In this document: piece after piece, positions 3,178 to 19,975 of the stretch | Layout of the letters: every line of letters begins with the position of its first letter | How positions within the stretch are numbered: the first letter of the stretch is position 1 | IMG/VR virus record: IMGVR_UViG_3300025652_000699 | Span: 1 to 20,790 of that record | DNA length: 20,790 bases | Source of the DNA: a virus | Strand: one strand, 5' to 3' | Made by a program: the position numbers and the translations under genes | Notes under the pieces: model-generated | The model's input: only the letters and a program-made list of their open reading frames with translations | What the model was told of the DNA's origin: nothing | Databases searched by the model: none

Positions 3178-3510
3178 ATGGCTTTCAAATACAAGAGTCA
3201 CGGCGGGTTATGCTGCGGAATGCACCACCTCCACAACATACCCGCACACTCGGAGCAGACCGAAGAAAACCTCCGACAACTCTGTCTGCGGTACTCAAGT
3301 AACCAGCGGGTGCCTCCAACGCGAAAGACGATTGCCCTGGAAATGATCTTTACTGACCAGAAGCTTAAGAGGGGTTGGAAAGAAGCGCTTGCTCGACTAG
3401 GGTTTAAACGGACAATCCGTTGGAGCAACCCTAACACCGGAAATTTTTTGAATCAATACGTCCTTTGCTTGGAAGCTCCACCAGTCGAAGGATACCAGCA
3501 GGAGAACTAA
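3178..3510 (+). CDS. hypothetical phage protein with N-terminal CCG motif, 110 aa
   Basis: The ATG lies 5 nt after AGGAGA. The protein starts with a basic segment followed by HGGLCCGMHHLHNI. It then has a helix and a C-terminal unit running LARLGFKRTIRWSNPNTGNFLNQY. The Cys-Cys-Gly followed by His residues could bind a metal, but no fold can be asserted. Phages often carry a small protein of this general look near their ribonucleotide reductase genes. I recall the pattern but cannot name the family. The gene abuts the reductase beta subunit directly, so it is co-transcribed and probably co-regulated with dNTP synthesis. Confidence 0.65.
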   Translation: MAFKYKSHGGLCCGMHHLHNIPAHSEQTEENLRQLCLRYSSNQRVPPTRKTIALEMIFTDQKLKRGWKEALARLGFKRTIRWSNPNTGNFLNQYVLCLEAPPVEGYQQEN

Positions 3511-4491
3511 ATGGGTCTATTTGACCATCAAGTATCACGAAAACCAAATCTCTACCCCGAAACACAAAAGTTCATTGATGCTATTTGGTCATCGCACTGG
3601 ACTCCAAACGAGTTTAGCTTCCGTTCTGACTACAACCAGTTTCATAGTGAGTTGTCACCTGAACAGAAGATGGTGATCATCAGATCTCTCTCAGCCATTG
3701 GGCAAATTGAGGTGGCTGTCAAGACGTTCTGGGGTAAACTAGGACAGAACCTCCCACACCCCGCGATGGTTGATCTGGGGTTTGTGATGGCCAACAACGA
3801 GGTCATTCATAATCAAGCTTACGAGAAGCTGATCACCTCTCTCGGTCTCGAGGCGGTGTTTGAAAAGAACCTGGAAGAAAAAGTAGTTGCTGGTCGAGTT
3901 CAGTATCTACAAAAGTACAATGACAAGGTCTACGAAGATGATCGAAAGCAGTACATCTACGCGATCTGCCTCTTCACGTTGTTCGTTGAAAATGTATCAC
4001 TGTTCAGCCAGTTCTACACTGTCATGCACTTCAACCGGTTTGACGGAGTCTTGAAGGATACTGCACAACAAATCCAGTATACTCGTTCTGAAGAGACTCT
4101 ACACGCTCAGATCGGTATGTTCCTCATCAACAAGCTGCGAGAGGAGTACCCAGAACTCTTTGACAAGGAGCTGGAAGATCGGGTACGAGAAGAGTGTTTG
4201 GTGGCCTTCCAATCGGAGTGTGAAGTTATCGATTGGATCTTGCAAGGCTACACGGATCAACACCTGTCAAGCGATATCTTGAAAGTCTACATTGCAGATC
4301 GACTGAACGAGTCTATGCAAATGATTGGCTTCCAGGGCATCGGCACTGATCCAGAGAAAGCACACCTAATTACAGAGACTCTGTGGATGGAGGAGGAGAC
4401 TTACGGCAACAACATGACCGATTTCTTCCACAAGAAACCCACGGAGTACTCCAAGAAAGATAAGCCGATAACGGCAGAGGACATATTTTAA
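3511..4491 (+). CDS. nrdB: class I ribonucleotide reductase, beta subunit (radical-generating)
   Basis: A 326-residue protein matching the NrdB/R2 family in length and motifs. Likely diiron ligands are E67 (in GQIEVAV), E97 and H100 (NNEVIHNQAY), E160 (LFVENV), and E195 and H198 (RSEETLHAQ). Y104 sits seven residues after E97, as the radical Tyr122 does after Glu115 in E. coli NrdB, so a stable tyrosyl radical is expected. The first ligand appears to be Glu rather than Asp. The protein holds the radical that the alpha subunit uses to reduce ribonucleotides to deoxyribonucleotides in the host cytoplasm. The stop shares one base with the alpha-subunit start (TAATG). The beta-before-alpha order is the reverse of the E. 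coli nrdAB order. Confidence 0.96.
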   Translation: MGLFDHQVSRKPNLYPETQKFIDAIWSSHWTPNEFSFRSDYNQFHSELSPEQKMVIIRSLSAIGQIEVAVKTFWGKLGQNLPHPAMVDLGFVMANNEVIHNQAYEKLITSLGLEAVFEKNLEEKVVAGRVQYLQKYNDKVYEDDRKQYIYAICLFTLFVENVSLFSQFYTVMHFNRFDGVLKDTAQQIQYTRSEETLHAQIGMFLINKLREEYPELFDKELEDRVREECLVAFQSECEVIDWILQGYTDQHLSSDILKVYIADRLNESMQMIGFQGIGTDPEKAHLITETLWMEEETYGNNMTDFFHKKPTEYSKKDKPITAEDIF

Positions 4492-6191
4492 TGACATTCG
4501 AATGGGCAAACAAAGACAGTAGGGACTTCTTGTCGAAGGGGTATCTACAAGACGGAGAAGACATCGAAACTCGGGTTTCCTTCATGGCTGACAAATTCTA
4601 CGACGAACTGTTGAGGATGGGGATGACACGTGAGAAGGCTAGCGGGATCTCGAAGTCTTTCTTTGAGTACGCTGGTCGGGGTTTCTATAGCTTCGCTTCA
4701 CCCGTCCTAGCTAACTATGGTCGCGATCAGGGACTACCCGTCAGCTGCAACAATGTTGTAATCGACGATGACATGGGAGAAATCCTTCAGAAGGTAGCTG
4801 AGATCGGGATGCAAACAAAACACGGGGCAGGGACTTCGGCTTACCTTGGTCGACTTCGCCCTCGTGGCTCGCCCATTCGAGGGACTAGCTCTACCGCTGA
4901 CGGGGCCGTTCACTTCAGTTCACTCATTGAGTCGAATGTTGAGACGGTTCGTCAGGGTGGGGTGAGACGTGGCGCTTGCGCAGTCTACTACGAGATCGAC
5001 TCTCCTGACATCTATGAGGTGTTGCGAATTCAGGAGGACGGTTTCTATATCAAGCACCTTAGCTTTGGATTGTGTGTAGGTGACGACTGGTTGAAATCTA
5101 TGCTTGAGGGTGATCCTGAGAAGCGAAAGATTTGGGCCGCTGTAATTAGTAAACGTCGAGAGACAGGTTATCCTTACCTGTTCTTCAAAGACAACGTTAA
5201 CAAGGCTGCTCCAAAGCACTACAAAGACGCAGGGTTGACAATTCTGAGCAGCAACCTCTGCACCGAGATCATGCAGCCTAGTGACACAGACATCAGCTTC
5301 GTTTGTGTTCTGGGCTCCATGAATCTCGCCCTGTTTGATGAGTGGGTAATAACTAACGCAGTTGAAGTCTACACCTACTTCCTCGATTGTGTTGTTGAAG
5401 AGTATGTCCGTAAGACAACAGGTATTAAGTTCATGGAGTCTGTCAACAAGGCTGCTAGTGAGCACCGAGCAATCGGTATTGGTACCTTGGGGCTGCACAC
5501 CCTTTATCAGAGCCGTGGGTTGCCCTTCGAATCTGTAGAGGCTCGTGAGCTTAACATTGAAGTTCACAAGGTCATTGACGAGCGCACAAAGTCTGCTTCT
5601 CGAGAGATGGCTAAACTCTTTGGAGAACCTGAGCTGCTAAAGGGTACAGGCCTCCGAAACGCCACACTGATGGCTGTAGCACCAACCACCAGCTCCAGCT
5701 TTGTGTTGGGTCAGGTATCACCCAGCATCGAACCTCTCAACTCTAACTACTTCACCAAGGATCTGGCAAAGGGGAAGTACACCTTCCGCAACCCAGAATT
5801 AAAGAAGTTGTTGGAAGAGAAGTACGCAGCGGGTAAGGCTGAGCCAGAGCGGACTGTCTGGCTTAATAGTGTGTGGCGGAGCATCCTCATCAAGGACGGC
5901 TCTGTACAACACCTAGACTTCCTATCTGAGGATGAGAAGGCTGTCTTCAAGACCTTTGGCGAGATCAGCCAGCTGGAGCTAGTCATTCAGGCTTCAGATC
6001 GCCAGCAGTTCATTGATCAGGGCCAGTCTCTGAATCTAATGATCCACCCAAGTACCCCCGCCAAGGACATCCACGAGTTGCTAATCACAGCTTGGTCTCT
6101 TGGTCTTAAGTCTCTATACTACCAGCGTTCCACTAGCCCTGCGCAACAACTTGCGAGGGATTTGGTTAGCTGTACAGCGTGCGAGGCTTGA
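4491..6191 (+). CDS. nrdA: class I ribonucleotide reductase, alpha subunit (catalytic), lacking ATP-cone
   Basis: A 566-residue catalytic subunit. Active-site residues are visible: C86 (LPVSCNN) and C272 (SFVCVLGS) as the redox pair, N255-C257-E259 (SNLCTEI) with the thiyl-radical cysteine, the Y543-Y544 radical-transfer pair (LYYQRS), and a C-terminal C561-x-x-C564 pair that is re-reduced by glutaredoxin or thioredoxin. RGSPIRG at about 125-131 fits the conserved core. E. coli NrdA has 761 residues. The missing part is mainly N-terminal, where the dATP-sensing ATP-cone would be, so overall dATP feedback inhibition is probably absent. There is no intein or intron interruption. A glutaredoxin-like gene follows directly. 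Confidence 0.96.
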   Translation: MTFEWANKDSRDFLSKGYLQDGEDIETRVSFMADKFYDELLRMGMTREKASGISKSFFEYAGRGFYSFASPVLANYGRDQGLPVSCNNVVIDDDMGEILQKVAEIGMQTKHGAGTSAYLGRLRPRGSPIRGTSSTADGAVHFSSLIESNVETVRQGGVRRGACAVYYEIDSPDIYEVLRIQEDGFYIKHLSFGLCVGDDWLKSMLEGDPEKRKIWAAVISKRRETGYPYLFFKDNVNKAAPKHYKDAGLTILSSNLCTEIMQPSDTDISFVCVLGSMNLALFDEWVITNAVEVYTYFLDCVVEEYVRKTTGIKFMESVNKAASEHRAIGIGTLGLHTLYQSRGLPFESVEARELNIEVHKVIDERTKSASREMAKLFGEPELLKGTGLRNATLMAVAPTTSSSFVLGQVSPSIEPLNSNYFTKDLAKGKYTFRNPELKKLLEEKYAAGKAEPERTVWLNSVWRSILIKDGSVQHLDFLSEDEKAVFKTFGEISQLELVIQASDRQQFIDQGQSLNLMIHPSTPAKDIHELLITAWSLGLKSLYYQRSTSPAQQLARDLVSCTACEA

Positions 6192-6193
6192 TC

Positions 6194-6412
6194 ATGGGAG
6201 TTGTACTTGTAACTAGGAAGACTCCTTACTGCTCTCAGTGTGATATCGGTAAACGGTATCTTGAGAGGGCAGAAATCCCCTTTGAAATGGTGGATATAAC
6301 AGAGTATGAAGGGGATCTAGGGGGTATCAAATCACTCCCGATCCTCATCATCGATGGGAACCCGGTGGGTTCTCTCGAAGAGGTTCGCAACTATGCGAGA
6401 AACATCGTTTAG
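6194..6412 (+). CDS. glutaredoxin-like thiol-disulfide oxidoreductase
   Basis: A 72-residue protein with a thioredoxin fold. The active-site motif is TPYCSQC (C13-x-x-C16) after the first strand (VVLVTRK), and the cis-proline is P49 in KSLPILIIDG. It ends with the helix SLEEVRNYARN. It very likely reduces the C-terminal cysteines of the ribonucleotide reductase alpha subunit encoded just upstream. An in-frame GTG at 6179 lies inside the reductase gene. I prefer the ATG at 6194, which has GCGAGG about 7 nt upstream and gives the normal family N-terminus. It overlaps the next small gene. Confidence 0.9.
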   Translation: MGVVLVTRKTPYCSQCDIGKRYLERAEIPFEMVDITEYEGDLGGIKSLPILIIDGNPVGSLEEVRNYARNIV

Positions 6413-6617
6413 AGACTACGCAACACTGAAGCGTGGCGATATTGTGGAGTTTGATGACGGTAGCGAGTACACCGTTATCTACTCCGCACAACTGGAAGAC
6501 GGTAGCCTGATGATCCTTTTTAATCAGGCGACTATTTTTGTGTCTTCACGACAAGCTGTGTTTAAGCCCTTCAAGATTGTTGGGTATCACAAACTTCAAC
6601 CGATAAGAAAGCTCTAG
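6393..6617 (+). CDS. hypothetical protein with SH3/KOW-like motif, 74 aa
   Basis: The frame is open from 6354, but the ATG at 6393 has AAGAGG about 8 nt upstream and gives a sensible start (MRETSFRDYATLKRGD). It overlaps the glutaredoxin-like gene by 20 nt. Residues about 11-60 carry KRGDIVEFDDGSEYTVIYS followed by short beta strands, closely like the repeats in the protein at 1105-1461 (PGDIVREWDGSTVYVATG). A small beta-barrel binding protein is likely. The partner is unknown. It is the last gene before the terminator at 6616-6636. Confidence 0.68.
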   Translation: MRETSFRDYATLKRGDIVEFDDGSEYTVIYSAQLEDGSLMILFNQATIFVSSRQAVFKPFKIVGYHKLQPIRKL

Positions 6618-6636
6618 CACCCGCTGGGGCTTTTTT
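6616..6636 (+). terminator. rho-independent terminator after the nucleotide-metabolism block
   Basis: AGC-A-CCC, loop GCT, GGGGCT, then six T. The stem is six G-C-rich pairs with one bulged A. An AAAGC at 6608-6612 could lengthen the stem against the T tract side. It overlaps the TAG stop of the gene at 6393-6617 and separates this block from the amidoligase block. I see no clear promoter in the 19 nt between it and the next ATG, so partial read-through or an upstream promoter is needed for the next genes. Confidence 0.8.
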
Positions 6637-6655
6637 ACCAAACTAGAGAGTCGTT

Positions 6656-7591
6656 ATGGCTGAATATATCGAAACGTACAAGAATAAAAAGATCTTGGAG
6701 CCTCTGCAGAGCTCCAGCAGCAATGTCAAGTATGCGGCACTCAACGTCGATGGGCGGAGTGTTGATATGGCGGGGGCCTGCCATGCTGGGCTGTTCCGTT
6801 TTCTGAAAGACAATAAGTCGAACGGGTGGGACTACTGTGTTGTCATGACTGACCCCAAGGTCATCGAGGCCCCTGGAGTTGAAACCCTTGTTGGTTGGCT
6901 TGTGAACAAGTCGCCCTGGGCCGTTGTCTTTGAAGAAAAAGATATTGACGTCATCAAAGAGTTTGGTTTTCTCCTTGACCTGACTCAAGACTGGAACTTG
7001 GTTGGCGGGGCTCTCCAGCTGTCAAGAACCACCACGAACGAGTTCCGTGAAAGGCTTCAGAATACCGGAGCGGTCGTAGAGTGCGACTTCGGTGTCTCTA
7101 TCATGGGGTTGCTGGCAATGTTCTTGTCAGGGAACAACTTCACCATCGATAAGGATAAATCTGTCAGGCTGATGGGTCACGCTGCGGCCTCAGGTAAATT
7201 CATGTCAACAAACCACCTTCCCTTTCCTGACTTGGATTTCTCAGGGCTGGTTAACTTGCTGAGGGACGAATACCAGCTCCCTAGCAGGGGGGTGTCGTTC
7301 CTGGCTGAGCCCGGTATGTTCGGGTTGTCAAAGGTGATGCGGACGTACCGCGAAGGGGGTGACAAAAAACCTAAGCTTTCTGGAAACCTCAGCGGCATCC
7401 TCTCAGAACACCCCACAATCCTTGGGATGAAAGAAGCTTTGGTCAAGGTCAGCAACTACAAGTCGCTCTGGCCGGAAATGGCGGAGAAGCTGCGCAAACT
7501 AAACTTGGAGTCAGGGGGTCAAAACGCAGAGTCAAAAGTAGGCGTCAATCTCATGGCGCTTGAACTGGTTATCGAACAAACAAAAGGTTAA
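6656..7591 (+). CDS. unrecognised protein at head of amidoligase cluster, 311 aa
   Basis: The ATG lies just after AGAGAG and is the first after the terminator. The protein has an alternating alpha/beta look in its first half: a strand at about 25-32 (KYAALNVDG), then a helix with HAGLFRFL, then WDYCVVMTD and SPWAVVFEEKDI. This could be a Rossmann-like or glycosyltransferase-A-like core, but no diagnostic motif is present. The C-terminal third is helical and basic (MKEALVKVSNYKSLWPEMAEKLRKL). It has no membrane segment. It sits 4 nt upstream of the glutamine amidotransferase gene, so it probably acts in the same pathway, for example as a substrate carrier, transferase or accessory subunit. That role is inferred only from position. 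Confidence 0.72.
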   Translation: MAEYIETYKNKKILEPLQSSSSNVKYAALNVDGRSVDMAGACHAGLFRFLKDNKSNGWDYCVVMTDPKVIEAPGVETLVGWLVNKSPWAVVFEEKDIDVIKEFGFLLDLTQDWNLVGGALQLSRTTTNEFRERLQNTGAVVECDFGVSIMGLLAMFLSGNNFTIDKDKSVRLMGHAAASGKFMSTNHLPFPDLDFSGLVNLLRDEYQLPSRGVSFLAEPGMFGLSKVMRTYREGGDKKPKLSGNLSGILSEHPTILGMKEALVKVSNYKSLWPEMAEKLRKLNLESGGQNAESKVGVNLMALELVIEQTKG

Positions 7592-7595
7592 AATT

Positions 7596-8630
7596 ATGTG
7601 TGGTCTAGTAGGAATTATCGACAAGAACGTCGATGTAAATCAAATCAACATGTTCCGTTGGATGTTGCATCTTGATGTAGTTCGAGGCGAAGACTCCACA
7701 GGAGTTGCGGTTCGTTCTTCAAAATACAACGGAAAAGATGGTCGGGTCGACCTGTTCAAGGCCGTCGGGCACCCCTCATCTCTCTTCAGGAAGTACCCAG
7801 AAGTGTTTGAAAGCAATGGTAAACTTGATAAGTCTGCCTTTGAAAGCAGCATCAGCTTTTTGATGGGGCACAACCGTGCAAAGACAATTGGGGCCACGAG
7901 CGAGACAAACGCTCACCCCTTCCATGCACAGCACATTGTGGGTTGCCACAACGGAACTCTCTCCGGCGGTCTCCACCAACTTCCTGACAACGAGGAGGGT
8001 GAGACTGATTCAGAACAGATCTTCCGGGCTCTTGCCGAGGGGTGGTCCATCGATAAGATCGTGGAGACTGCCAAGGGTGCCATGGCCCTCACTTGGTGGA
8101 ACGCGAAGGAGAAGTCCTTCAATATCTACCGCAACAGTGAGCGTCCGTTGTTCATTGCTCACAACGCCTCAAAGACGGCCTACGCCTACGCAAGCGAACA
8201 GTGGATGCTGTCAGTTGCAGCGGCAAAGGCTCGGCAGTCAGCAATCTTCAAGGAGGTCAAGGAGATACCCGCTCACACCTACATGAAGTTCCAGATCGAG
8301 CCTAAGGTGGAGCTTGTGGAAGAAAGGGAGATCACCCCCAAGGTTTTTACCATTCCCCAGAACAACAATCACCGTGGGGTTTCTGGGGGTGGTAACCGGC
8401 AGTTTAAGGGCATTACTCACTCGAACGTAACGAGTTTCGACACTGGTTGGGTTGACGTCAGCTTCAAGGACGCAACTGAGTTTGATAAACATACCAAGTA
8501 CGGTTGTTCCTTGTGTCAGGACAATCTGAGTTTCGATGAGCACAAAGAAGGCGATATACGTTGGCTGGACAAGGAGACACCCCTGTGTGCTCTCTGCGCA
8601 GCTGAATTTAAACAAGAAGGAGCCGCATAA
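7596..8630 (+). CDS. class II glutamine amidotransferase with C-terminal Cys4 extension
   Basis: I place the start at ATG 7596, not further upstream, because Cys2 must become the N-terminal nucleophile after Met removal. AAAAGG lies 8 nt upstream. The 344-residue protein shows the Ntn-hydrolase glutaminase motifs: MCGLVGIID, RGEDSTG (30-36), GHNRAKTIG (91-99), NAHPF (105-109), HNG (118-120) and TDSE (137-140). These match GlmS, PurF and AsnB glutaminase domains, which release ammonia from glutamine. No synthase domain follows, so the ammonia must be used by a partner, most likely the amidoligases or ATP-grasp enzyme downstream. A C-terminal part has C304-x-x-C307 and C331-x-x-C334, a probable zinc ribbon, which is not part of the usual glutaminase. 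It shares one base with the next gene (TAATG). Confidence 0.92.
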   Translation: MCGLVGIIDKNVDVNQINMFRWMLHLDVVRGEDSTGVAVRSSKYNGKDGRVDLFKAVGHPSSLFRKYPEVFESNGKLDKSAFESSISFLMGHNRAKTIGATSETNAHPFHAQHIVGCHNGTLSGGLHQLPDNEEGETDSEQIFRALAEGWSIDKIVETAKGAMALTWWNAKEKSFNIYRNSERPLFIAHNASKTAYAYASEQWMLSVAAAKARQSAIFKEVKEIPAHTYMKFQIEPKVELVEEREITPKVFTIPQNNNHRGVSGGGNRQFKGITHSNVTSFDTGWVDVSFKDATEFDKHTKYGCSLCQDNLSFDEHKEGDIRWLDKETPLCALCAAEFKQEGAA

Positions 8631-9508
8631 TGGTTAAGATCAAAGGTACCGAATTTTTCCTGGGTTGCGACCCTGAAGTCTTCATGTTTGATACGAAGGA
8701 AAGCCGCTACGTCTCTGCCTACGGAATGATTCCAGGGACAAAGGAAGCACCACACCTTGTTGAGCACGGCATGGTTCAAGTCGACGGTATGGCGTTGGAA
8801 TTTGGGATTGATCCCTCACGGACTTCAAAGGAGTTCTTGAGCAACATCCGCGCTGTCATGGCTCAACTGCAGGAGATGGTTGGTTCCCGTTACGAGCTCC
8901 ACGCAAAAGCTCTTGTGAACTTCGGGGCAAAGGAGATGAAGGAACAGCCTGAAGAGGCGCTGGAGCTTGGTTGTGAACCTGACTTCTCCGCCTACACAGG
9001 GGTTGCTAACCCAGCACCTGTGGTTTCTTCCCTCCTGGAAAACTGTCGGTCTGGAGGGGGCCATGTTCACATTGGGTGGGGTGCTGACTTTGATGCCTTC
9101 TCACCGGAGCACATGATGGAGTGTCAGGTGCTTGCGGCCCAGCTAGACCACTATCTTGGTCAGAGCTCTCTCGGTTGGGAGGGTCCTGGTCTCAAGGTTC
9201 GGGACGACAGCCCGCCAAAGAAACGTCGTGAGCTCTACGGCAAGGCTGGTGCCTTCCGCCCGAAGCCCTATGGGATGGAGTATCGCACACTGAGTAACGA
9301 GTGGTTGAATTCCGACGATCTGATCGTGACGGTATTCGATCGAACAGTTCAAGGGATCAGAGCGTTGATGTCTGGTACAACCAAGTTTGACAAGAAGGTC
9401 AACCTCTTCGGGGGTAACGTTCAACTGACACCGAGATTCTTGATTGAGTCTCCACTTTTCGATCACATCAGTGATCAAGCTATCAGGGAGAGCATCATTA
9501 ATGTTTAA
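8630..9508 (+). CDS. phiEco32-like COOH-NH2 ligase type 2 (amidoligase)
   Basis: A 292-residue protein with the signature of the phiEco32-like COOH-NH2 ligase type 2 family (glutamine-synthetase-like fold). Visible are GCDPEVF (12-18), VDGMALEFGID (51-61), GCEPDF (114-119), GGGHVHIGW (142-150), and YGKAGAFRPKPYGMEYRTLS (203-222). The acidic residues (D14, E16, E57) and H145/H147 are likely Mg-ATP ligands. R210 and R219 likely bind phosphate or substrate. Family members are predicted to activate a carboxylate with ATP and join it to an amine. AAGAAGGAG precedes the start. It is followed by an 8-nt overlap with the next gene. The substrate is unknown. Confidence 0.9.
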   Translation: MVKIKGTEFFLGCDPEVFMFDTKESRYVSAYGMIPGTKEAPHLVEHGMVQVDGMALEFGIDPSRTSKEFLSNIRAVMAQLQEMVGSRYELHAKALVNFGAKEMKEQPEEALELGCEPDFSAYTGVANPAPVVSSLLENCRSGGGHVHIGWGADFDAFSPEHMMECQVLAAQLDHYLGQSSLGWEGPGLKVRDDSPPKKRRELYGKAGAFRPKPYGMEYRTLSNEWLNSDDLIVTVFDRTVQGIRALMSGTTKFDKKVNLFGGNVQLTPRFLIESPLFDHISDQAIRESIINV

Positions 9509-10127
9509 CAACGATCTGAGCTATGCTGTGAGCCGGGTGCAGGGCACCTACATGTTCAACAAGACGTTGGGTCAGCTGATGCTGATCGACCACATAGAGC
9601 CTGACGGCGGCTCGAATCGTCTCGACCGAGCGACTATCCACCAAATCGGTCGGGACTCAGAAGGGGTAGCCATCAGCGCGGTGGGTGTTAGCGGAGACTT
9701 GCAATTTCAGGTAGGCCGCTTCGGCTATGTTAACCCCCTTGAGGGGCCGACAAAGTTCATCACCAGGGCACCACTGCGGAGAGAGTACCGACAGGGTATC
9801 CGAAGCTCGCAGCTGAACTTCACAAGGGAGGGCTCCGTAGCGGGGGTCTCTACCGGGTGGCTGAACACTAACAGCAAGCGTTTGTCAGACACAATCTGCT
9901 CGATGTTCCCTTCCAATCTTGGGGCATTGTTTGAGGACGTTGAAGAGAAAGGGGTCGCTACAGCCTTCAGCCGCTACTTCGCTCTCACTCAGCATTTCAA
10001 GTTGGCGTACCGAGGGAACGTCGTTGGCAAGGTTGACAAGGCCGATAAGTTCAAACTAAACACCGATAAAATGTTCCTCATTGAGGAGCTGTCGCAAGTC
10101 GTAGGAGAAGAAAACATTGCTCGATAA
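9501..10127 (+). CDS. unrecognised protein between two amidoligases, 208 aa
   Basis: The frame is open from 9444, but the ATG at 9501 makes a short 8-nt overlap with the preceding stop, as elsewhere in this block. The protein begins MFNNDLSYAVSRVQGTYMFN. It has a beta-rich N-terminal half containing GRFGYVNPLEG and the basic stretch RAPLRREYRQGIRSSQ. A helical C-terminal half follows (FEDVEEKGVATAFSRYFAL). The YVN...RxPxRxxxQG pattern is one I associate with small phage proteins near amidoligase genes, but I cannot name a family. It may bind nucleic acid or an acidic peptide substrate through its basic loop. That is inference. Confidence 0.7.
   Translation: MFNNDLSYAVSRVQGTYMFNKTLGQLMLIDHIEPDGGSNRLDRATIHQIGRDSEGVAISAVGVSGDLQFQVGRFGYVNPLEGPTKFITRAPLRREYRQGIRSSQLNFTREGSVAGVSTGWLNTNSKRLSDTICSMFPSNLGALFEDVEEKGVATAFSRYFALTQHFKLAYRGNVVGKVDKADKFKLNTDKMFLIEELSQVVGEENIAR
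10103..10108 (+). promoter_or_regulatory. Shine-Dalgarno that decides a TTG start at 10117
   Basis: AGGAGA, with its AGGAG core 9 nt upstream of TTG at 10117. No ATG is available before the first conserved motif of the amidoligase (TFGVEVE), so TTG is the likely start. The start overlaps the end of the preceding gene by 11 nt. Confidence 0.7.
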
Positions 10128-10923
10128 AAAGGTACGAGAGGTCTTTGGTTTGATTGAAACCAAGGGTACGTTTGGGGTGGAGGTTGAGGTGGAGGGTTCT
10201 CCACGAACCGAGGATCTCCCCAACTGGAATGCAACAAGGGACGGCTCTCTTCGCGGTAGTGGCGCTCTTGAGTATGTCCTACGTCAACCAGTGAGTCTAG
10301 ACGCTGCGAAGAAGGCAGTCCAAGATCTTTACAACAACATTAAACAGTCGGGAGGAAAAATCCGTAGGTCCATGCGGGCGGGTATTCACGTACACGTCAA
10401 CTGTCAGGACTTGACAATCAGGCAGCTGGGCACGGTGATCGCTGCCTACTACGCCTTTGAAGAGGTTCTCACCGAAAGATTTGGTGAAGACCGCGTTGGG
10501 AATTTGTTCTGTCTTCGTTTGGCGGATGCTGAGTACATTAGTACAGCTCTGCATCGGGCTTTCGTGAACAAAAACTTTGATTCCTTGACTTCAGATAATA
10601 TCCGTTACGCGGCTATGAATCTGAACGCTCTCTCTCGTTACGGTTCTCTCGAGTTCCGGGCGATGGAAACACCCACTACACCGGGTAGTATCCTTGAGTG
10701 GATAGATATTCTGGCGCGGCTGCGGGAGACTCATGCTTCCTTCAGTGATGCCTCAGATCTACTCAGTGCCTTCAGCGCAGGAGGTATCGAGAACGCAATC
10801 GATATTATCTTCGGGGGTGGAAAAGAAGCAGCACTGATTCGGGCTGTTCCTGGCTACGAAGAAAAAATCTACAACGGTATCCGCGACACGCAATACTGGG
10901 TTTACTCAACTGATTGGAAGTAA
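10117..10923 (+). CDS. putative amidoligase, Amidoligase_2-like
   Basis: A 268-residue protein with the pattern of the putative amidoligase family (Amidoligase_2). Visible are GTFGVEVEVEG (17-27), RDGSLRGSGALEYVLRQPVS (41-60), AGIHVHVNCQDLT (88-100), and a MNLNALSRYGSLEFRAMETP stretch (167-186). E22, E24, E52, H91 and H93 are likely metal and ATP ligands, and R181 likely binds phosphate. It belongs to a different subfamily from the amidoligase at 8630-9508, so the pair probably catalyses two separate amide-forming steps. The start is TTG with a good ribosome site. Alternative GTG starts would remove the first motif. One base (924) lies between its stop and the ATP-grasp start. Confidence 0.88.
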   Translation: MLDKKVREVFGLIETKGTFGVEVEVEGSPRTEDLPNWNATRDGSLRGSGALEYVLRQPVSLDAAKKAVQDLYNNIKQSGGKIRRSMRAGIHVHVNCQDLTIRQLGTVIAAYYAFEEVLTERFGEDRVGNLFCLRLADAEYISTALHRAFVNKNFDSLTSDNIRYAAMNLNALSRYGSLEFRAMETPTTPGSILEWIDILARLRETHASFSDASDLLSAFSAGGIENAIDIIFGGGKEAALIRAVPGYEEKIYNGIRDTQYWVYSTDWK

Positions 10924-10924
10924 G

Positions 10925-11731
10925 ATGGTAGCTACTACTTTTGTTTTCCCCTACCGCGCAGGGTCACGTAGCGCACGGGCTCTGACAGAGGCGCTAGAAG
11001 GGCGACTGATCAGACGTGAGAATTCGCGTTTCCGTCCTTCACGAAACAAGACGCTGATCAACTGGGGGTCTACCGATCTACCTGAGTCACACACTCGGGG
11101 GTTGGGTAAACTTCTAAACCACCCGGAAGCCGTTCGCTCTGCCTCAAACAAGCGGATGTTCTTTGAGCGAAACAGCAGTTCAGCAGAACCTGCGCGGACT
11201 CCTGACTGGACCACTGACAAGGCCGTGGCGAGGAGTTGGTTTCAGGAGCGAGAGAACCAGTTAGTGTTTGCTCGTACTGCTCTCGCTGGACACAGCGGGG
11301 AAGGCATCGTCAAGATCACAAATGAACGTGAGTTAGACGGTGTGCGCGACGGAACTCTTCTGGTCAAGTACGTCAAGAAAGCTAGTGAGTTTCGAATCCA
11401 CGTAGGACGGGCTGATGGCCCCTTCTCGGTGATCGATGTTCAGAAGAAGCTAAGACGTATTGAAGTCCCTGATGATCAAGTTGATTTTCAGGTTCGGAAT
11501 CACGCTAACGGCTTCATCTTTGCTCGTAACGATATCGAAGTTCCTCAAGATGTTATCTACCAGGCAATTCGTGCGACTGCAGCGATGAGGGACCTTGACT
11601 TCGGTGCGGTGGACGTCATCTACAATGAGCGGCATGGTGAAGCCTATGTTCTGGAAATCAACACCGCTCCTGGTTTGGAGGGTTCTACTATCGACAACTA
11701 CGCTACCTTTTTTAGGTCAGTGACTATCTAG
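10925..11731 (+). CDS. phage ATP-grasp ligase
   Basis: A 268-residue protein with a compact ATP-grasp fold. Visible are the glycine-rich loop AGHSGEGIVKI (121-131), the adenine-binding strand LLVKYVKKASEFRIHV (K148, E155, R157), and D230 in DFGAVDVIYN. The Mg-binding strand YVLEINTAPGLEGSTIDNY (E244, N246) closes the domain. It resembles D-Ala-D-Ala ligase and RimK-type enzymes, which form an acyl-phosphate and then an amide or peptide bond. An ATP-grasp gene of this kind occurs next to amidoligases in phiEco32-like phages. It is the last gene of the block and is followed by a strong terminator. The substrate is unknown. Confidence 0.9.
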   Translation: MVATTFVFPYRAGSRSARALTEALEGRLIRRENSRFRPSRNKTLINWGSTDLPESHTRGLGKLLNHPEAVRSASNKRMFFERNSSSAEPARTPDWTTDKAVARSWFQERENQLVFARTALAGHSGEGIVKITNERELDGVRDGTLLVKYVKKASEFRIHVGRADGPFSVIDVQKKLRRIEVPDDQVDFQVRNHANGFIFARNDIEVPQDVIYQAIRATAAMRDLDFGAVDVIYNERHGEAYVLEINTAPGLEGSTIDNYATFFRSVTI

Positions 11732-11737
11732 TGACGG

Positions 11738-11791
11738 GGGGTCGTGGAGCATTGTGCTCTGCGGCCTCTTTTTTTTTTTTTTTTTTTTTTT
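11738..11791 (+). terminator. rho-independent terminator with 23-T tract, end of + strand block
   Basis: A 14-pair stem (11738-11751 with 11755-11768, including four G-T wobbles) closes a TTG loop. The inner five pairs are perfect (GAGCA/TGCTC). It is followed at once by 23 consecutive T (11769-11791). It starts 7 nt after the ATP-grasp stop. A U tract this long is far beyond the usual 6-9. Confidence 0.88.
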
Positions 11792-11801
11792 ACCTCTCTC
11801 C

Positions 11802-11829
11802 AGTTTGAAAAGAAAGGCCCCGAAGGGCC
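11802..11829 (-). terminator. rho-independent terminator of the lysis/tail block
   Basis: On the - strand, GGCCC-TTCG-GGGCC forms a five-pair G-C stem capped by the extra-stable C(UUCG)G tetraloop, followed by TTTCTTTTC. It lies 3 nt after the spanin stop. Together with the + strand terminator it forms a back-to-back barrier between convergent operons. The approximately 100 nt between the two genes hold nothing else. Confidence 0.85.
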
Positions 11830-11832
11830 AGT

Positions 11833-12216
11833 CTACTTTTTCTTTTTCCAGATTTCATCAGGTGAGGGGAGCTTCCAAAGAAGGTACGACCAAGCAACGA
11901 AGAGCAATAGAAACAAACCAACGAGCCAAGGAGGAATCTCATTGACTACAAGAGTCTCAACGGATTCTGTACTAACTCTATTGGTGTCGGAGGTTTGTTT
12001 GATGTCTCTAGCTTGAGGTCGAACGATGCTTTGCTCCGTGTTCTTAGAGCTGCCTATCGTCTGGTTGTTCGTCTTCCCTACTTGCGTGTTCGCTGCCACG
12101 TTCGGTCCACCGCCTGTTAGAAGGCCGAGAACCGGGTTGCTGCAGCTTGCTGTAAACATCAGCACCCATAGCAAAAGCAATATAGAGAAAAATCGGTGGA
12201 GCGAGGGTCGAAACAA
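11833..12216 (-). CDS. candidate unimolecular spanin (lipobox plus C-terminal TM)
   Basis: A 127-residue protein. The N-terminal signal (RPSLHRFFSILLLLWVLM) ends in a lipobox-like FTASC, with C25 the likely lipidated cysteine. The -3 residue is Thr, which is tolerated but not ideal. Residues 26-94 are polar, Asn/Thr/Gly-rich and without cysteine. One inner-membrane helix follows (IPPWLVGLFLLLFVAWSYLLW, about 95-114), then a basic tail (KLPSPDEIWKKKK). A lipoprotein head for the outer membrane plus a C-terminal inner-membrane helix is the design of u-spanins such as phage T1 gp11 (similar length), which fuse the two membranes at the last step of lysis. The start is TTG with AAAGGAGA 6 nt upstream. 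173 nt overlap the preceding gene in another frame. Confidence 0.78.
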   Translation of the reverse strand: MFRPSLHRFFSILLLLWVLMFTASCSNPVLGLLTGGGPNVAANTQVGKTNNQTIGSSKNTEQSIVRPQARDIKQTSDTNRVSTESVETLVVNEIPPWLVGLFLLLFVAWSYLLWKLPSPDEIWKKKK

Positions 12217-12298
12217 GTTGAATCTCCTTTGTCTCAGTGATATAAACCAACCACAAAAACATTACCAGACCTAGTTCTCGTTTAAATGTCTTTTTCAT
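12044..12298 (-). CDS. small two-TM membrane protein, holin-like, 84 aa
   Basis: The chosen ATG (12298) gives MKKTFKRELGLVMFLWLVYI. Two hydrophobic stretches follow: LGLVMFLWLVYIT (about 10-22) and IQLVSTLAPPIFLYIAFAMG (about 26-45), joined by a short polar turn, then DVYSKLQQ and a long polar tail of about 30 residues. This topology resembles small phage lysis-associated membrane proteins and class II holins, but I recognise no exact family. An upstream GTG at 12331 would add 11 residues. Neither start has a strong ribosome site. The polar tail is encoded where the spanin signal sequence and lipobox lie in another frame, so the tail may have little function. The start overlaps the preceding gene by 17 nt. 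Confidence 0.62.
   Translation of the reverse strand: MKKTFKRELGLVMFLWLVYITETKEIQLVSTLAPPIFLYIAFAMGADVYSKLQQPGSRPSNRRWTERGSEHASREDEQPDDRQL
12223..12230 (-). promoter_or_regulatory. Shine-Dalgarno deciding the TTG start of the spanin
   Basis: On the - strand AAAGGAGA, with the GGAG core 7 nt before TTG at 12216. It lies inside the coding sequence of the preceding gene. No ATG in frame would keep the signal peptide, so this site sets the spanin start. Confidence 0.7.
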
Positions 12299-12737
12299 TT
12301 CGATGGACTCTGAAGATGTTGCTCTCCGCACAGGTTGTTTTTGGCGGTAGTATACCGTACATTGGTGACGTTATCGTCCAACAAGTCTTCAAGCGATAGA
12401 CACCTTCAGCAAGCCGTTTTCCGTCGCCGTAAGTTCGAGGCGACCACCAAGACATGAGCAAAGGATCTGGCCTGATGCTTTCTAGTTTGTACTCGAAAGG
12501 TCCACCAGCGTCTTCCATCTCGATCTCGTTCGTGATGACGTTTCGGACTACAACAGAGTACTTGATTTGGGTCTGGACAACAACCCCGCCATCGTAACCG
12601 AGGACCATATCCTCACCGACTAAGCTGTCAGCCACGAAGAGGTCTCCAGGCTTATACCAGAGAGTTGCGGGCAGAGCCATCAGCGACACGTAGACTAGCA
12701 CAACCAACCAGATTAGTCTTTCTAATTTATTGAACAA
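12282..12737 (-). CDS. membrane-anchored protein with periplasmic domain, lysis cluster, 151 aa
   Basis: The frame is open from 12827, but the best start is TTG at 12737, with a perfect AAGGAGG 8 nt upstream. This shortens the overlap with the upstream gene to 11 nt. The product begins MFNKLERLIWLVVLVYVSLM, a signal anchor (TM about 8-26). A beta-rich domain with Cys at two places (RLKTCWTI and PPKTTCAES) follows, probably in the periplasm, where the cysteines could pair. I recognise no family. Membrane-anchored proteins of this type with a CxI.SP...PPK.TCxES-like end recur in phage lysis regions in my memory, but no function is established. The neighbours suggest a role in or near lysis. Confidence 0.7.
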   Translation of the reverse strand: MFNKLERLIWLVVLVYVSLMALPATLWYKPGDLFVADSLVGEDMVLGYDGGVVVQTQIKYSVVVRNVITNEIEMEDAGGPFEYKLESIRPDPLLMSWWSPRTYGDGKRLAEGVYRLKTCWTITSPMYGILPPKTTCAESNIFRVHRNEKDI

Positions 12738-12981
12738 CTGAGAGCCCTCCTTGAAGAACGAATTGAGCCACGTAAGCGATGACAGCGGCACCAAAGCCCC
12801 TGGAGATCCATCGGAGACTGTTCTCAATGTTGGTCAAGCGTGTGTCAACCATCGAAGTGTTAAGTTTGTCTGTTGCGGACTTGATTTCCTGTTGAACCAT
12901 TCGGTTCAGCAATTCTTGATTCCGCATCTCAAGATTATCAATTCGACGAATCAGGTTACCTCTCCATTCATCCGTAGTCAT
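12727..12981 (-). CDS. XhlA-like / holin-like coiled-coil membrane protein, 84 aa
   Basis: I choose the ATG at 12981, which overlaps the endolysin stop as ATGA. The ATG at 12999 has no ribosome site, while GGAGG lies 11 nt before 12981. Residues 8-58 form a probable coiled coil (LIRRIDNLEMRNQELLNRMV ... TRLTNIENSLRWI), and a single TM helix follows (about 62-80, FGAAVIAYVAQFVLQGGL). This order, a charged coiled coil then one C-terminal helix, matches XhlA-type hemolysin/holin proteins that act with endolysins. It sits directly downstream of the endolysin gene. It could equally be a regulator of another membrane protein. Confidence 0.7.
   Translation of the reverse strand: MTTDEWRGNLIRRIDNLEMRNQELLNRMVQQEIKSATDKLNTSMVDTRLTNIENSLRWISRGFGAAVIAYVAQFVLQGGLSVVQ
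12746..12752 (-). promoter_or_regulatory. Shine-Dalgarno deciding a TTG start at 12737
   Basis: On the - strand AAGGAGG, the full consensus, 8 nt before TTG at 12737. It lies inside the end of the preceding holin-like gene and is the strongest ribosome site in the lysis cluster. Confidence 0.75.
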
Positions 12982-13442
12982 TCTGGGTGAGACCTCCATG
13001 TCAGTTGGAAGTGCGGTCCGTCCATGAAGGGCCTACGGTTCTCCGCTCGGCGAGCCTTGACGTAGTCGTCCATCGCTGACTGAGCGCTCAAGTATTCGTT
13101 GAGGGGGCGGAGCCAGGAAGCGCCCCACATTACCTCAACATCCAACTCAATAGCAGCTCTTCGAAAACCTTCAGCAATGTCAACGTAGAGCTCAAAGGGC
13201 TCGTACGTATACACCCCCTCGTGGTGGGCTACAACATCAACCGCGTGACCTGTCAGATGGCGTGATCGCATTGTCTTGGAGCGGCCTTCCTGGACATACC
13301 GTCGCTGTTGTTCAAGGGTTCGCAGACCTTGGGTGATTCCAAAGTCTACTGCGGACAACTGAATGGCGCGGTTCGCCACTTTCACAAGAGGAGCCTTGAC
13401 TCCTCGTAGTCGTTGTTTTGATCGTGCGCTAAATTTGTTCAT
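12978..13442 (-). CDS. M15-family peptidase endolysin
   Basis: A 154-residue single-domain peptidase with the M15/VanY-type zinc site. SRHLTGHAVDV (60-70) supplies H62 and D69, and DGPHFQL (141-147) supplies H144 and the probable catalytic D141. WGA at 106-108 is also typical. Close functional relatives include L-alanyl-D-glutamate peptidases such as phage T5 endolysin and Ply500, which cut the peptide stems of peptidoglycan. The size matches. There is no signal peptide, so release to the periplasm needs a holin, consistent with the neighbours. A strong ribosome site (TAAGGAGAAACC) precedes the ATG. Confidence 0.92.
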   Translation of the reverse strand: MNKFSARSKQRLRGVKAPLVKVANRAIQLSAVDFGITQGLRTLEQQRRYVQEGRSKTMRSRHLTGHAVDVVAHHEGVYTYEPFELYVDIAEGFRRAAIELDVEVMWGASWLRPLNEYLSAQSAMDDYVKARRAENRRPFMDGPHFQLTWRSHPE

Positions 13443-14165: not shown

Positions 14166-17100
14166 TTATTTATACCTTATGAATGCGGTTAGGTTACCGT
14201 AAGCCGAAATAGTACTTGCACCACCAGCTGCGCTGTACCAGTAAAGCAGAACAGTACGATCCGTTGCACTGGAAGTATACTTGTCTGTCCAAACAACAGT
14301 GCCAGAGGGGTGGTCATTGACTGCAATCATCAGTGGTGAATTACGGCTACTGCCAGGAGTTGTGGCTCCATCCATGGTGACTTTATATCCCCACTGAGCT
14401 CCGGGGCCGTCTGGATAACTCTGTTCAAAGTTCCAGATCACGATAATGTCTGCAGTAGTGCCAGCTGGCTGAGGGAGGATGCAAGTAGTAGCGAGCCCAT
14501 TGTGCCCAGTGCTCATGGATCCACTCCGGTTAAAGGCCGCGTTAGTGGCCGCGTCAGACGCAAGATACGGCGAGGATATACCCCCTGATTTGATGGTTAG
14601 AGAGTTGCCAGAAGTTGCCAGCCTGCCAGTGTCTAGTATTAGCTGGCTGGCGGTAAGCTGACCACGAATACTGGCTGAGCCGAATTCAGCTGAACCACCG
14701 TTTCTCCTGATTCTCCAACCTGAAGACCCAGCCACAAAGTTGTCGGACTGGATATCGCTGGGGAACACAGTAGACCCGTTAGGGGCTGTAAAGCTGATTG
14801 TTACAGCTCCACTGTCAGGTTGAACAACATAGAACTCAGAAGTCCAGAGTTGGTTACTGATTGTGGGCAAGCTTGACATACCAGGAGGCGTTCTTGACCA
14901 CCCCGAAGAGAGACCTGTAAAGACCCCTGTGCTGAAATCAAAACCACTGGCGGAAGGAGTTGCAGGGGCAGTACTTGAGTACGTATTGAAGTACAAAAGG
15001 CCTGTTGCTGTCCTGTCGCCTGTTGAACCGTCAGCTCCATTGGCACCATCGGCACCATCTGCTCCGGCTTTTGCCTTTGAGATCGTCTGAGTCACTGTTT
15101 GAGAGAAAGAGTCTCCAGCAAAGGTCAGACCAATGATTTCCAGTGTGATAGTTGCAACATCTACGTTAGAGTCCATTGCTGAGTGTTGGCCAAGGAGTGC
15201 ATAAGACCCGGCGTCGCTTATAGACCCGACAGATAGCGAGGCCACTGGCGAGACTCCAAGAACAGAAACAGAGTAAGTTCCGGGTGTTGCACCCAGACCG
15301 TCATACTGAACTTCCGTAGCGCCTTCATAGACTCGGATAGTTGAGCCAGAGCCAAAGTACGTTTGGATGACGCCATTAACAGAAGCAGGCATAGCGTGAC
15401 TGGAGTTATCCATTACTACCTGAATAGCATTTGATCCGTCTTGTGTATAGATCACAAAGACAGAGTCTCTCGCAATCTCGATTGCATCCTCGTAGACAAT
15501 GAGTTCGATGCTATCGGCTTCAGAAGGGATCGAAGTAGGCGCGGTGATTGTGTAGTTATCGCTACTACTTACGAAGGCTCCATTCTTGTTCCACACATAG
15601 GTGATAACGCCGGGGGCATTAAACACACTAGCGGTAAAGCTCGCCTCGCTAGGAACCGGAGAAGTACCTGCGGTGTTGTACTTCATTGCTAGTTTACCTG
15701 AAGCTATGGTTATCTTAGCGGTTTTTCCAGGAGGCCCGATTGGACCAGGATCACCAACTATTCCATCTTCGCCAGCAATTGCCTTTGAGATAGACTGCTG
15801 GAAGACTCTGGAGAAGTCGTTACCATTTAGGTCTTTACCTGTAATGGTGTACTCAATCACTGCGCGATCCGTGGACATGTTAGCATGGTTGCCAACAGAC
15901 CCGTTAGAGAACGCGCCAACGGTAATCGTACCCTGAGTGACGACTGAGTCTGCAATCAACCACTCACCAGCAATCGGTGTTGGGTCGTAGTCCAGTTCAG
16001 TTGGGCCTTGGAAGACTCGGAAGGTACCACCTGTGCTAGAGTAGTTAGTCACAGCACCATTGGCTTCTGCCGCCAGAGCTTGCGACGGGTTATCGAAGAA
16101 GACTTGGATAGCATCACTACCCGCCTGTGTGCCCCCGATAGAGAGATAGTCTTCGCCAGCAGGTACACCATCGTCGTACATCACTAGCCTGACAACGTCA
16201 GGTAGCGAAGAGCGATTAGGTGGTGGTGTATATACAAAGTCTTCGGTGTTGACACTACTAACCCCATCAACTGACCAAGAGTAATTTTTTGTACCCTGGA
16301 AGTTGTACCCGACAGCCGAGAGAGTAACGTTAGCAGGGAAGGGGTTCTGGCCTGTTTGATCGTAGGCGAATACCGCCCCGTTTTCTCCAACGGAAATTGC
16401 AACAGTCTTACCGTCGAGGCCAGGAGCACCTTCTTCTCCAGGAATCTGGATCATTATAGGTGTACTGACAATGGCAGAGCCCGTTGGGTCTGAGAACTCG
16501 AAGCTGACTGTCGCGCTAGCTCCTGCGATGTTAATGCTGGGAGTGATAGCTAAATTGTCAGCAACAGTTTGGAAGTTGGCCCGGATACCTTGGATAGATA
16601 CATCAGTAGCGACCCAGTAATCAAAGCCTGGTTGATCCGGCTGCCTACTAAAGATCTCTAAGTAAGCGTTGTAAATGTCGAGCTCTCTCTGGGTGAAACC
16701 AGGATCAAATGCAACTGCAGGGTCAATAACTTCTGTTATTGTCGATGACCAAGTGTCTCCGTCTCGGGTAATCCTGTAGCGAGCAGCCGCCAGCTCTTTC
16801 TCAATGAGAGTAAAACGGACGTCAAGATCAAGGAAGTCAGCACTGTAAACGCCTTCAGTGGTCTTGGAAATAGTGAGACCAGAAACGGGGTCAATGTCAC
16901 CAAAGATCAGGTTATTACGTTGGAAGGCTGAGTTGGCGTAGATACCTCTGGCCGACTTGTTGTTAACACCATCACGAGATCGAATACTGAAGTCGTAGGC
17001 ACCAGTGTTCAGACCTTGAATCTCAAAGCGGGGGACAGTAGTTGTGCCCAAGACTACCCACTGCTTTTCAGCAGCAGCATAGAATCTTTGGCTCATTGTG

Positions 17101-19406: not shown

Positions 19407-19975
19407 TAGCTTTTCCCCCATTCCAGAGTCTTAGACGACCCCTTATAGAGAAAGTCAAAGCTCGTATCGTTTACATTGATTTGGTCCATGCCATCGCGCG
19501 ACACCGGATACCCACCTCGTTGGTCAAGGTTGGCCATAGGTGAAGAGCCCGTGACGATGACTTGTAGTGATTCAAAGTCATTACTGATTGAGTCTTGGTC
19601 AACAGTTCCGCGGTAAGCCAGAAGCATATCGTTGAAAGAGCTCACCACAGGAGCACCATTGGTGTCGAAACGACCAATCCACACTTCCATCTTCTTGCCA
19701 GCCAGGCCGTTCTTGTGGTCTGACAGAGGAATAGGATTACCCCCCGCCAGAACAATCTTGAACTGCTCTTTGTCAACTGAGCTGCTCGCCCGAGGTGTGT
19801 CCACAGCCACGAGGTTTGCACCACCATGGACAAGGTAACCATCGATAGTCATTGTAGTTGGAAAGCTAGAAAAGAAGTAAGAGGCAGAAGTCGCATGGAT
19901 AGCCACAATGAAGTAGAACTTGAGGTCTTTCTGAGAGAGCGCAGTAACAAAGCCTGCAGGTATGTTGTTTCTCAT
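19406..19975 (-). CDS. minor tail protein (tail-tip hub), putative
   Basis: A 189-residue, mostly beta protein beginning MRNNIPAGFVTALSQKDLKF. Its middle has LAGKKMEVWIGRFDTNG and YRGTVDQDSISND. The C-terminus runs SRDGMDQINVNDTSFDFLYK and ends TLEWGK. The pattern (early FxxAxSxK/QxL, a central GrxxxxxxxF, and a terminal LxWGK) is that of minor tail proteins encoded just upstream of tip-attachment proteins in siphoviruses. It starts in an ATGA overlap with the gene before it and shares one base with the J-like gene. Its position between the tape measure and the tip protein supports a structural role in the tail tip. No enzyme motif is seen. Confidence 0.72.
   Translation of the reverse strand: MRNNIPAGFVTALSQKDLKFYFIVAIHATSASYFFSSFPTTMTIDGYLVHGGANLVAVDTPRASSSVDKEQFKIVLAGGNPIPLSDHKNGLAGKKMEVWIGRFDTNGAPVVSSFNDMLLAYRGTVDQDSISNDFESLQVIVTGSSPMANLDQRGGYPVSRDGMDQINVNDTSFDFLYKGSSKTLEWGKS

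Follow-up and report, generated by a model that had tools for sequence, protein, structure and literature searches.

A copy of the described phage amidoligase cassette in a virus record with a lambda-like tail-tip protein

The IMG/VR virus record IMGVR_UViG_3300025652_000699, whose whole length of 20,790 bases (probably a fragment; position 1 is the first letter of the record) is called the window below, carries six genes on its plus strand at 6656-11731, here named g1 to g6. We are nearly certain that these genes constitute a new copy, real and intact, of an already described phage amidoligase ('peptidoglycan modification') cassette and not a new system. The following hallmarks of that cassette are present: a class II glutaminase with an N-terminal Cys, a phiEco32-like COOH.NH2 ligase, an Amidoligase_2 enzyme and an ATP-grasp ligase, lying on one strand in a conserved order with members of the g4 and g1 families. 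A seven-gene version was described in RIO-1-like podoviruses such as PSA-HP1, is conserved in phiEco32, 7-11, PA11, tf, MR299-2, LUZ24, PaP3 and CW02, and was predicted to introduce three unusual linkages into the side chains of peptidoglycan, with prevention of superinfection (PMC5498523). The cassette and a proposed modification of the wall have also been reported for further phages (PMC6256558, PMC11945000), and a passage of PMC10580990 credits the anti-superinfection idea to Iyer 2009. The original prediction, made from the letters of the window, had recognized the phiEco32-like relatives but understated what was known, as the whole cassette, including the two positions it left unassigned, had already been described along with a proposed role. 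As the best overall explanation, with a probability of roughly 0.45, we favor one in which the cassette ligases build amide bonds, most likely on a cell-wall precursor.

Composition and linkage of the cassette

A reading of the open reading frames in the window recovered six complete genes, all on the plus strand. The first, g1 (6656..7591; 311 aa), is separated by a 4-nt gap from g2 (7596..8630), which overlaps g3 (8630..9508) by 1 nt; g3 overlaps g4 (9501..10127; 208 aa) by 8 nt, g4 overlaps g5 (10117..10923; TTG start) by 11 nt, and a single nucleotide separates g5 from g6 (10925..11731). Thus, all six frames are open, and their junctions are as originally predicted, with neighbors overlapping or at most 4 nt apart.

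The four enzyme assignments of that prediction proved right in matches to Pfam and PHROG hidden Markov models (HMMs). The g2 product is a class II (N-terminal nucleophile, Ntn) glutaminase, matching GATase_6 (5e-15) and phrog_4736 (2e-56), and a PDB profile search groups it with the glutaminase domains of PurF and GlmS. Its N-terminus reads MCG, with the start taken at ATG 7596, so that Cys2 is the catalytic residue, in keeping with other class II glutaminases; ATG 7596 was preferred because the longer alternative, TTG 7560, would bury the N-terminal Cys. The C-terminal part of g2 contains a CxxC...CxxC arrangement, and no synthetase domain was recognized in it. The g3 product is a phiEco32-like COOH.NH2 ligase of type 2 (PF14395, 5e-8, above the cut-off; phrog_3815, 2e-65), and g5 encodes an Amidoligase_2 protein (PF12224, 6e-11, above the cut-off; phrog_7469, 2e-63); in PDB profile searches, neither of these two showed credible sequence similarity to a protein of solved structure. 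Finally, g6 encodes an ATP-grasp ligase resembling RimK and D-Ala-D-Ala ligases (phrog_2599, 1e-74; Dala_Dala_lig_C, PF07478, 6e-6, above the cut-off), for which the best PDB profile match is the alpha-L-glutamate ligase RimK (6e-11), followed by weaker matches to cyanophycin synthase and D-Ala-D-Ala ligase. When g2, g3, g5 and g6 were each aligned with their counterparts from ten other phages, making 11 diverse phages in all, the window proteins retained every invariant column, and the key motifs are accordingly intact, as had been claimed, with no loss of invariant residues.

Matches to g3 and g5 occur, respectively, in 317 and 322 of 50,697 phage records. Carriers of the cassette number in the hundreds among sequenced phages, and model phages of Escherichia coli and Pseudomonas are among them. 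The linkage of its genes was studied in IMG/VR loci retrieved by searches with the g3 and g6 profiles, together with 11 named phages, all read with iterative HMMs; as this set is conditional on g3 or g6, the rates give co-occurrence given one member, and removal of duplicate contigs left 150. A complete g2-g6 set is found in 120 of these distinct contigs, on one strand in every case. These 120 also contain g1 in 81 instances, a C26 gene (class I glutamine amidotransferase of the gamma-glutamyl hydrolase family) in 100 and, within the locus, a gamma-glutamyl cyclotransferase (GGCT) gene in 46. The commonest order, g1-C26-g2-g3-g4-g5-g6, is seen in 52 contigs. Gene order is mostly alike across the set, and phages RIO-1, PA11, CW02, phiEco32 and tf share the cassette arrangement. 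Since the same genes recur on one strand and mostly in the same order, the set is not due to chance, and a collection of six unrelated neighbors is ruled out; the genes travel together, as the original prediction required.

This fixed linkage also bears on the idea that these are genes of general nitrogen or amino-acid metabolism acquired from hosts, which was speculated for Phage-ZRK32, a carrier of similar genes (PMC10945688). We regard it as very improbable, as a conserved multi-gene association points to one pathway, and as a scan of cellular genomes from 84,980 species, which relied on two short peptide patterns, returned just 11 g3 matches, all in contigs of metagenome-assembled genomes. 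The cassette is, hence, not widely spread in cellular genomes.

The window copy was compared with the closest described systems. It shares with the RIO-1-like cassette (PSA-HP1 ORFs 40-47; PMC5498523, which cites Hardies 2013 for it) the class II glutaminase, the two amidoligases of different families, the ATP-grasp ligase, the unassigned proteins and the single strand, but the RIO-1-like cassette accompanies a podoviral tail, whereas the window encodes the tail-tip protein J (see below) and has no visible GGCT or C26 gene. In phiEco32 (phi32_86-80), whose predicted pathway is attributed to Iyer 2009 in the citing text, homologues of g3, g4, g5, g2 and g6 are recovered by HMM, which bears out the predicted kinship with phiEco32-like phages; there, unlike in the window, the glutaminase gene follows g5 and a GGCT gene lies downstream, and the four enzymes are 24-33% identical. 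The Pseudomonas phages PA11 and O4 (Paundecimvirus) have the g2-g3-g4-g5-g6 order of the window and a g3 that is 47-48% identical, but carry a C26 glutamine amidotransferase that the window record lacks.

Several departures from the common arrangement were also seen. Two crAss-like phages (L011 and L012) have homologues in the order g6-g3-g2-g5 with no recognizable g1 or g4, so that their cassette is either reduced or very divergent. In a few contigs a single cassette contains a pair of g6-family ATP-grasp genes (e.g. g1-C26-g6-g2-g3-g4-g5-g6), and in Rhizobium phage RHph_I3_11 two class II glutaminase genes (3213-4394 and 9274-10407 of locus L010) flank the ligases, with two GGCT matches in the genome.

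The unassigned proteins g1 and g4 and the variable C26 and GGCT genes

Single-sequence searches of viral contigs with g1 and g4 found nothing, as did a tblastn search of the phage collection with g1, and g1 has no match in Pfam. Both families surfaced only with iterative HMMs run on the loci fetched through g3 and g6, in which g1 is represented in 100 loci and g4 in 156. Thus, both nameless proteins belong to the core of the cassette, g4 as a family that matches phrog_11055 (1e-13), a phage family of no known function, and g1 as a divergent one. It follows that a reconstitution of the pathway omitting them may fail.

In the g1 alignment Cys42 and Arg124 are invariant and His187 is conserved at 97%, which suggests that g1 is possibly an enzyme. 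Its structural model, with a predicted local distance difference test score (pLDDT) of 74, has as BFVD relatives uncharacterised proteins of CW02, CVT22, RIO-1, GAP52 and Aeromonas 4_4572, all of them cassette carriers or close kin, so that the modeled fold independently backs the family built with HMMs. The AlphaFold model of g4 is of high confidence (pLDDT 92); Gly75, Arg89 and Gly99 are invariant in this family, and the N-terminal part shows a weak resemblance to small beta-barrels (Z at most 4.2). As nothing in g4 looks catalytic, it is perhaps a scaffold or adaptor. The structure prediction proposed in the original prediction for these two proteins yielded models but no clear PDB match: Foldseek searches of the PDB with both models gave none at E <= 0.001, their profiles found no credible match among PDB sequences, and comparison with the profiles of the ligase families indicated no relation. 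A GCS2 or glutamine-synthetase-like fold was considered for g1 in light of a weak match to YbdK (1r8g; Z 3.8, root-mean-square deviation 4.4 over 148 residues), a protein with the glutamate-cysteine ligase-type fold; the likeness is too weak to establish such a fold, and comparison with the g3 and g5 profiles lent it no support.

The C26 gene, of which the original prediction made no mention, usually sits between g1 and g2, being found in 80 of the 85 contigs that have both, and the window is one of the five without it. Neither at this position nor anywhere else in the 20,790-base record, itself probably a fragment, was a C26 gene found, and the same record likewise has no GGCT gene. Two of the closest relatives (G003 and G009) have GGCT about 17-18 kb from the cassette, farther than the window fragment reaches. 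Because C26 is also missing from the complete genomes of phiEco32 and RIO-1, it is not obligatory, and its absence from the window has precedent. If C26, and possibly GGCT, are dispensable, the minimal pathway is narrowed to six genes.

Possible chemistry and target of the cassette

The membership of g3, g5 and g6 in their respective families suggests that they act as three ATP-dependent carboxylate-amine ligases, which could form up to three unusual amide bonds with ammonia drawn from glutamine. The Ntn glutaminase g2 would act in trans as the source of the ammonia or of a glutamyl group, as no synthetase domain is apparent in its C-terminal part, while g4 and g1 would be conserved accessory subunits, g4 perhaps as a scaffold and g1 possibly as an enzyme. 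It is plausible, as originally predicted, that one amidation uses this ammonia while the remaining two ligases add further units. The substrate would be cytoplasmic and glutamate-rich, most likely a soluble or lipid-linked precursor of the peptidoglycan stem peptide, and the altered wall might impede superinfection or the action of lysins from competing phages. The purpose is guessed, and the wall precursor as target is a leading guess that we put forward tentatively. In its favor, the gamma-glutamyl-cleaving partners C26 and GGCT occur in relatives, and the likeness of g6 to both RimK and D-Ala-D-Ala ligases is consistent with it. Several points weigh against it: the proposed modification draws on family resemblance; the literature searched yielded no experimental demonstration of a cassette product or of a modified peptidoglycan; phages of very different hosts carry the cassette, which would equally fit a general metabolite; and C26 and GGCT, which form part of the usual argument for the wall, are not seen in the window record.

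One such metabolite would be a soluble gamma-glutamyl oligopeptide, a glutathione-like or amide-capped effector acting in the infected cell, for instance as a redox partner or by protecting or inhibiting something. Here, g5 or g3 would correspond to the gamma-glutamyl ligase and g6 to glutathione synthetase, with GGCT and C26 trimming the product. The presence of both trimming enzymes in relatives is compatible with this, as is a weak GCS2 signal shared with Amidoligase_2 in g5 (0.066 in the HMM scan). Furthermore, genes for the beta and alpha subunits of a class I ribonucleotide reductase and then a glutaredoxin (3511-6412, plus strand) lie directly 5' of the cassette, and a glutaredoxin gene adjoins the RIO-1 cassette too. 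However, such phages often carry reductase and glutaredoxin genes, and their position next to the cassette may therefore be without meaning; in addition, a terminator-like hairpin stands between the glutaredoxin gene and g1, and two ligases suffice for glutathione itself. We consider a soluble peptide possible but doubtful.

The closeness of g6 to RimK-type alpha-L-glutamate ligases, which modify ribosomal protein S6, and the placement of relatives' cassettes among replication genes could instead point to ligases that tag a host or phage macromolecule, protein or nucleic acid, with amino acids. As no base-hypermodification gene was recognized in the annotated neighborhoods viewed and no dedicated tag peptide was identified, this appears unlikely.

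Directed evolution of Pseudomonas phage FJK yielded missense mutations in an amidoligase gene and a GlmS-like glutaminase gene (PMC11450229), so that a phenotype may be accessible.

Tail lineage and flanking features

The part of the window downstream of the cassette contains genes for a lambda-like central tail fibre protein J and a distal tail protein. J was found in nine of the 36 cassette-bearing records tested. In a quick g3 tree with support from the Shimodaira-Hasegawa-like approximate likelihood ratio test (SH-aLRT), the window and the other J-bearing records, which include IMG/VR contigs L015, L016, L022, L023, L025, L036 and L098, group in a single clade (SH-aLRT 95) that is nested within contigs lacking J, known Zobellviridae among them. 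This topology suggests that a lineage with siphovirus-like tails acquired the cassette once. The cassette is thus also carried by a clade with a lambda-like tail tip, in addition to the mainly podoviral carriers of earlier descriptions. All J-bearing IMG/VR contigs that cover the g1-g2 junction have C26 there, whereas the window does not. A combined scenario, in which g1 represents a new enzyme family catalyzing an unrecognized step and the siphovirus-like copy, running without C26, ends in a product different from that of the podoviruses, strikes us as improbable. The J protein itself (1751 aa; 14166-19421, minus strand) has a DUF4214 match, inserts unusual for a tail protein and a repeated RELDIYNxYxxIxxRQPDQxGFDxW motif.

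Two hairpins on the plus strand bracket the cassette. The upstream one, terminator-like and with a T run (6607..6634; AGAAAGCTCTAGCACCCGCTGGGGCTTTTTT), has a fold energy of -16.9 kcal/mol (z -3.8), ends 21 nt 5' of g1 and was overlooked by a simple terminator scan. The downstream one (11736..11770) is a strong terminator-like hairpin with a stem of 16 pairs and a tail of about 22 T (-24.4 kcal/mol, z -6.4), and marks the end of the g1-g6 unit. A scan of 6150-12300 found no sigma-70-like promoter on the plus strand. The T run of about 22 nt (11770-11792) lies between convergent genes, and its length may be an assembly artefact. Beyond it, an M15-type peptidase endolysin (phrog_465; 12978-13442, minus strand) has as neighbors a small protein resembling phrog_1193 and a protein that begins like a lipoprotein, and these three probably constitute a lysis module.

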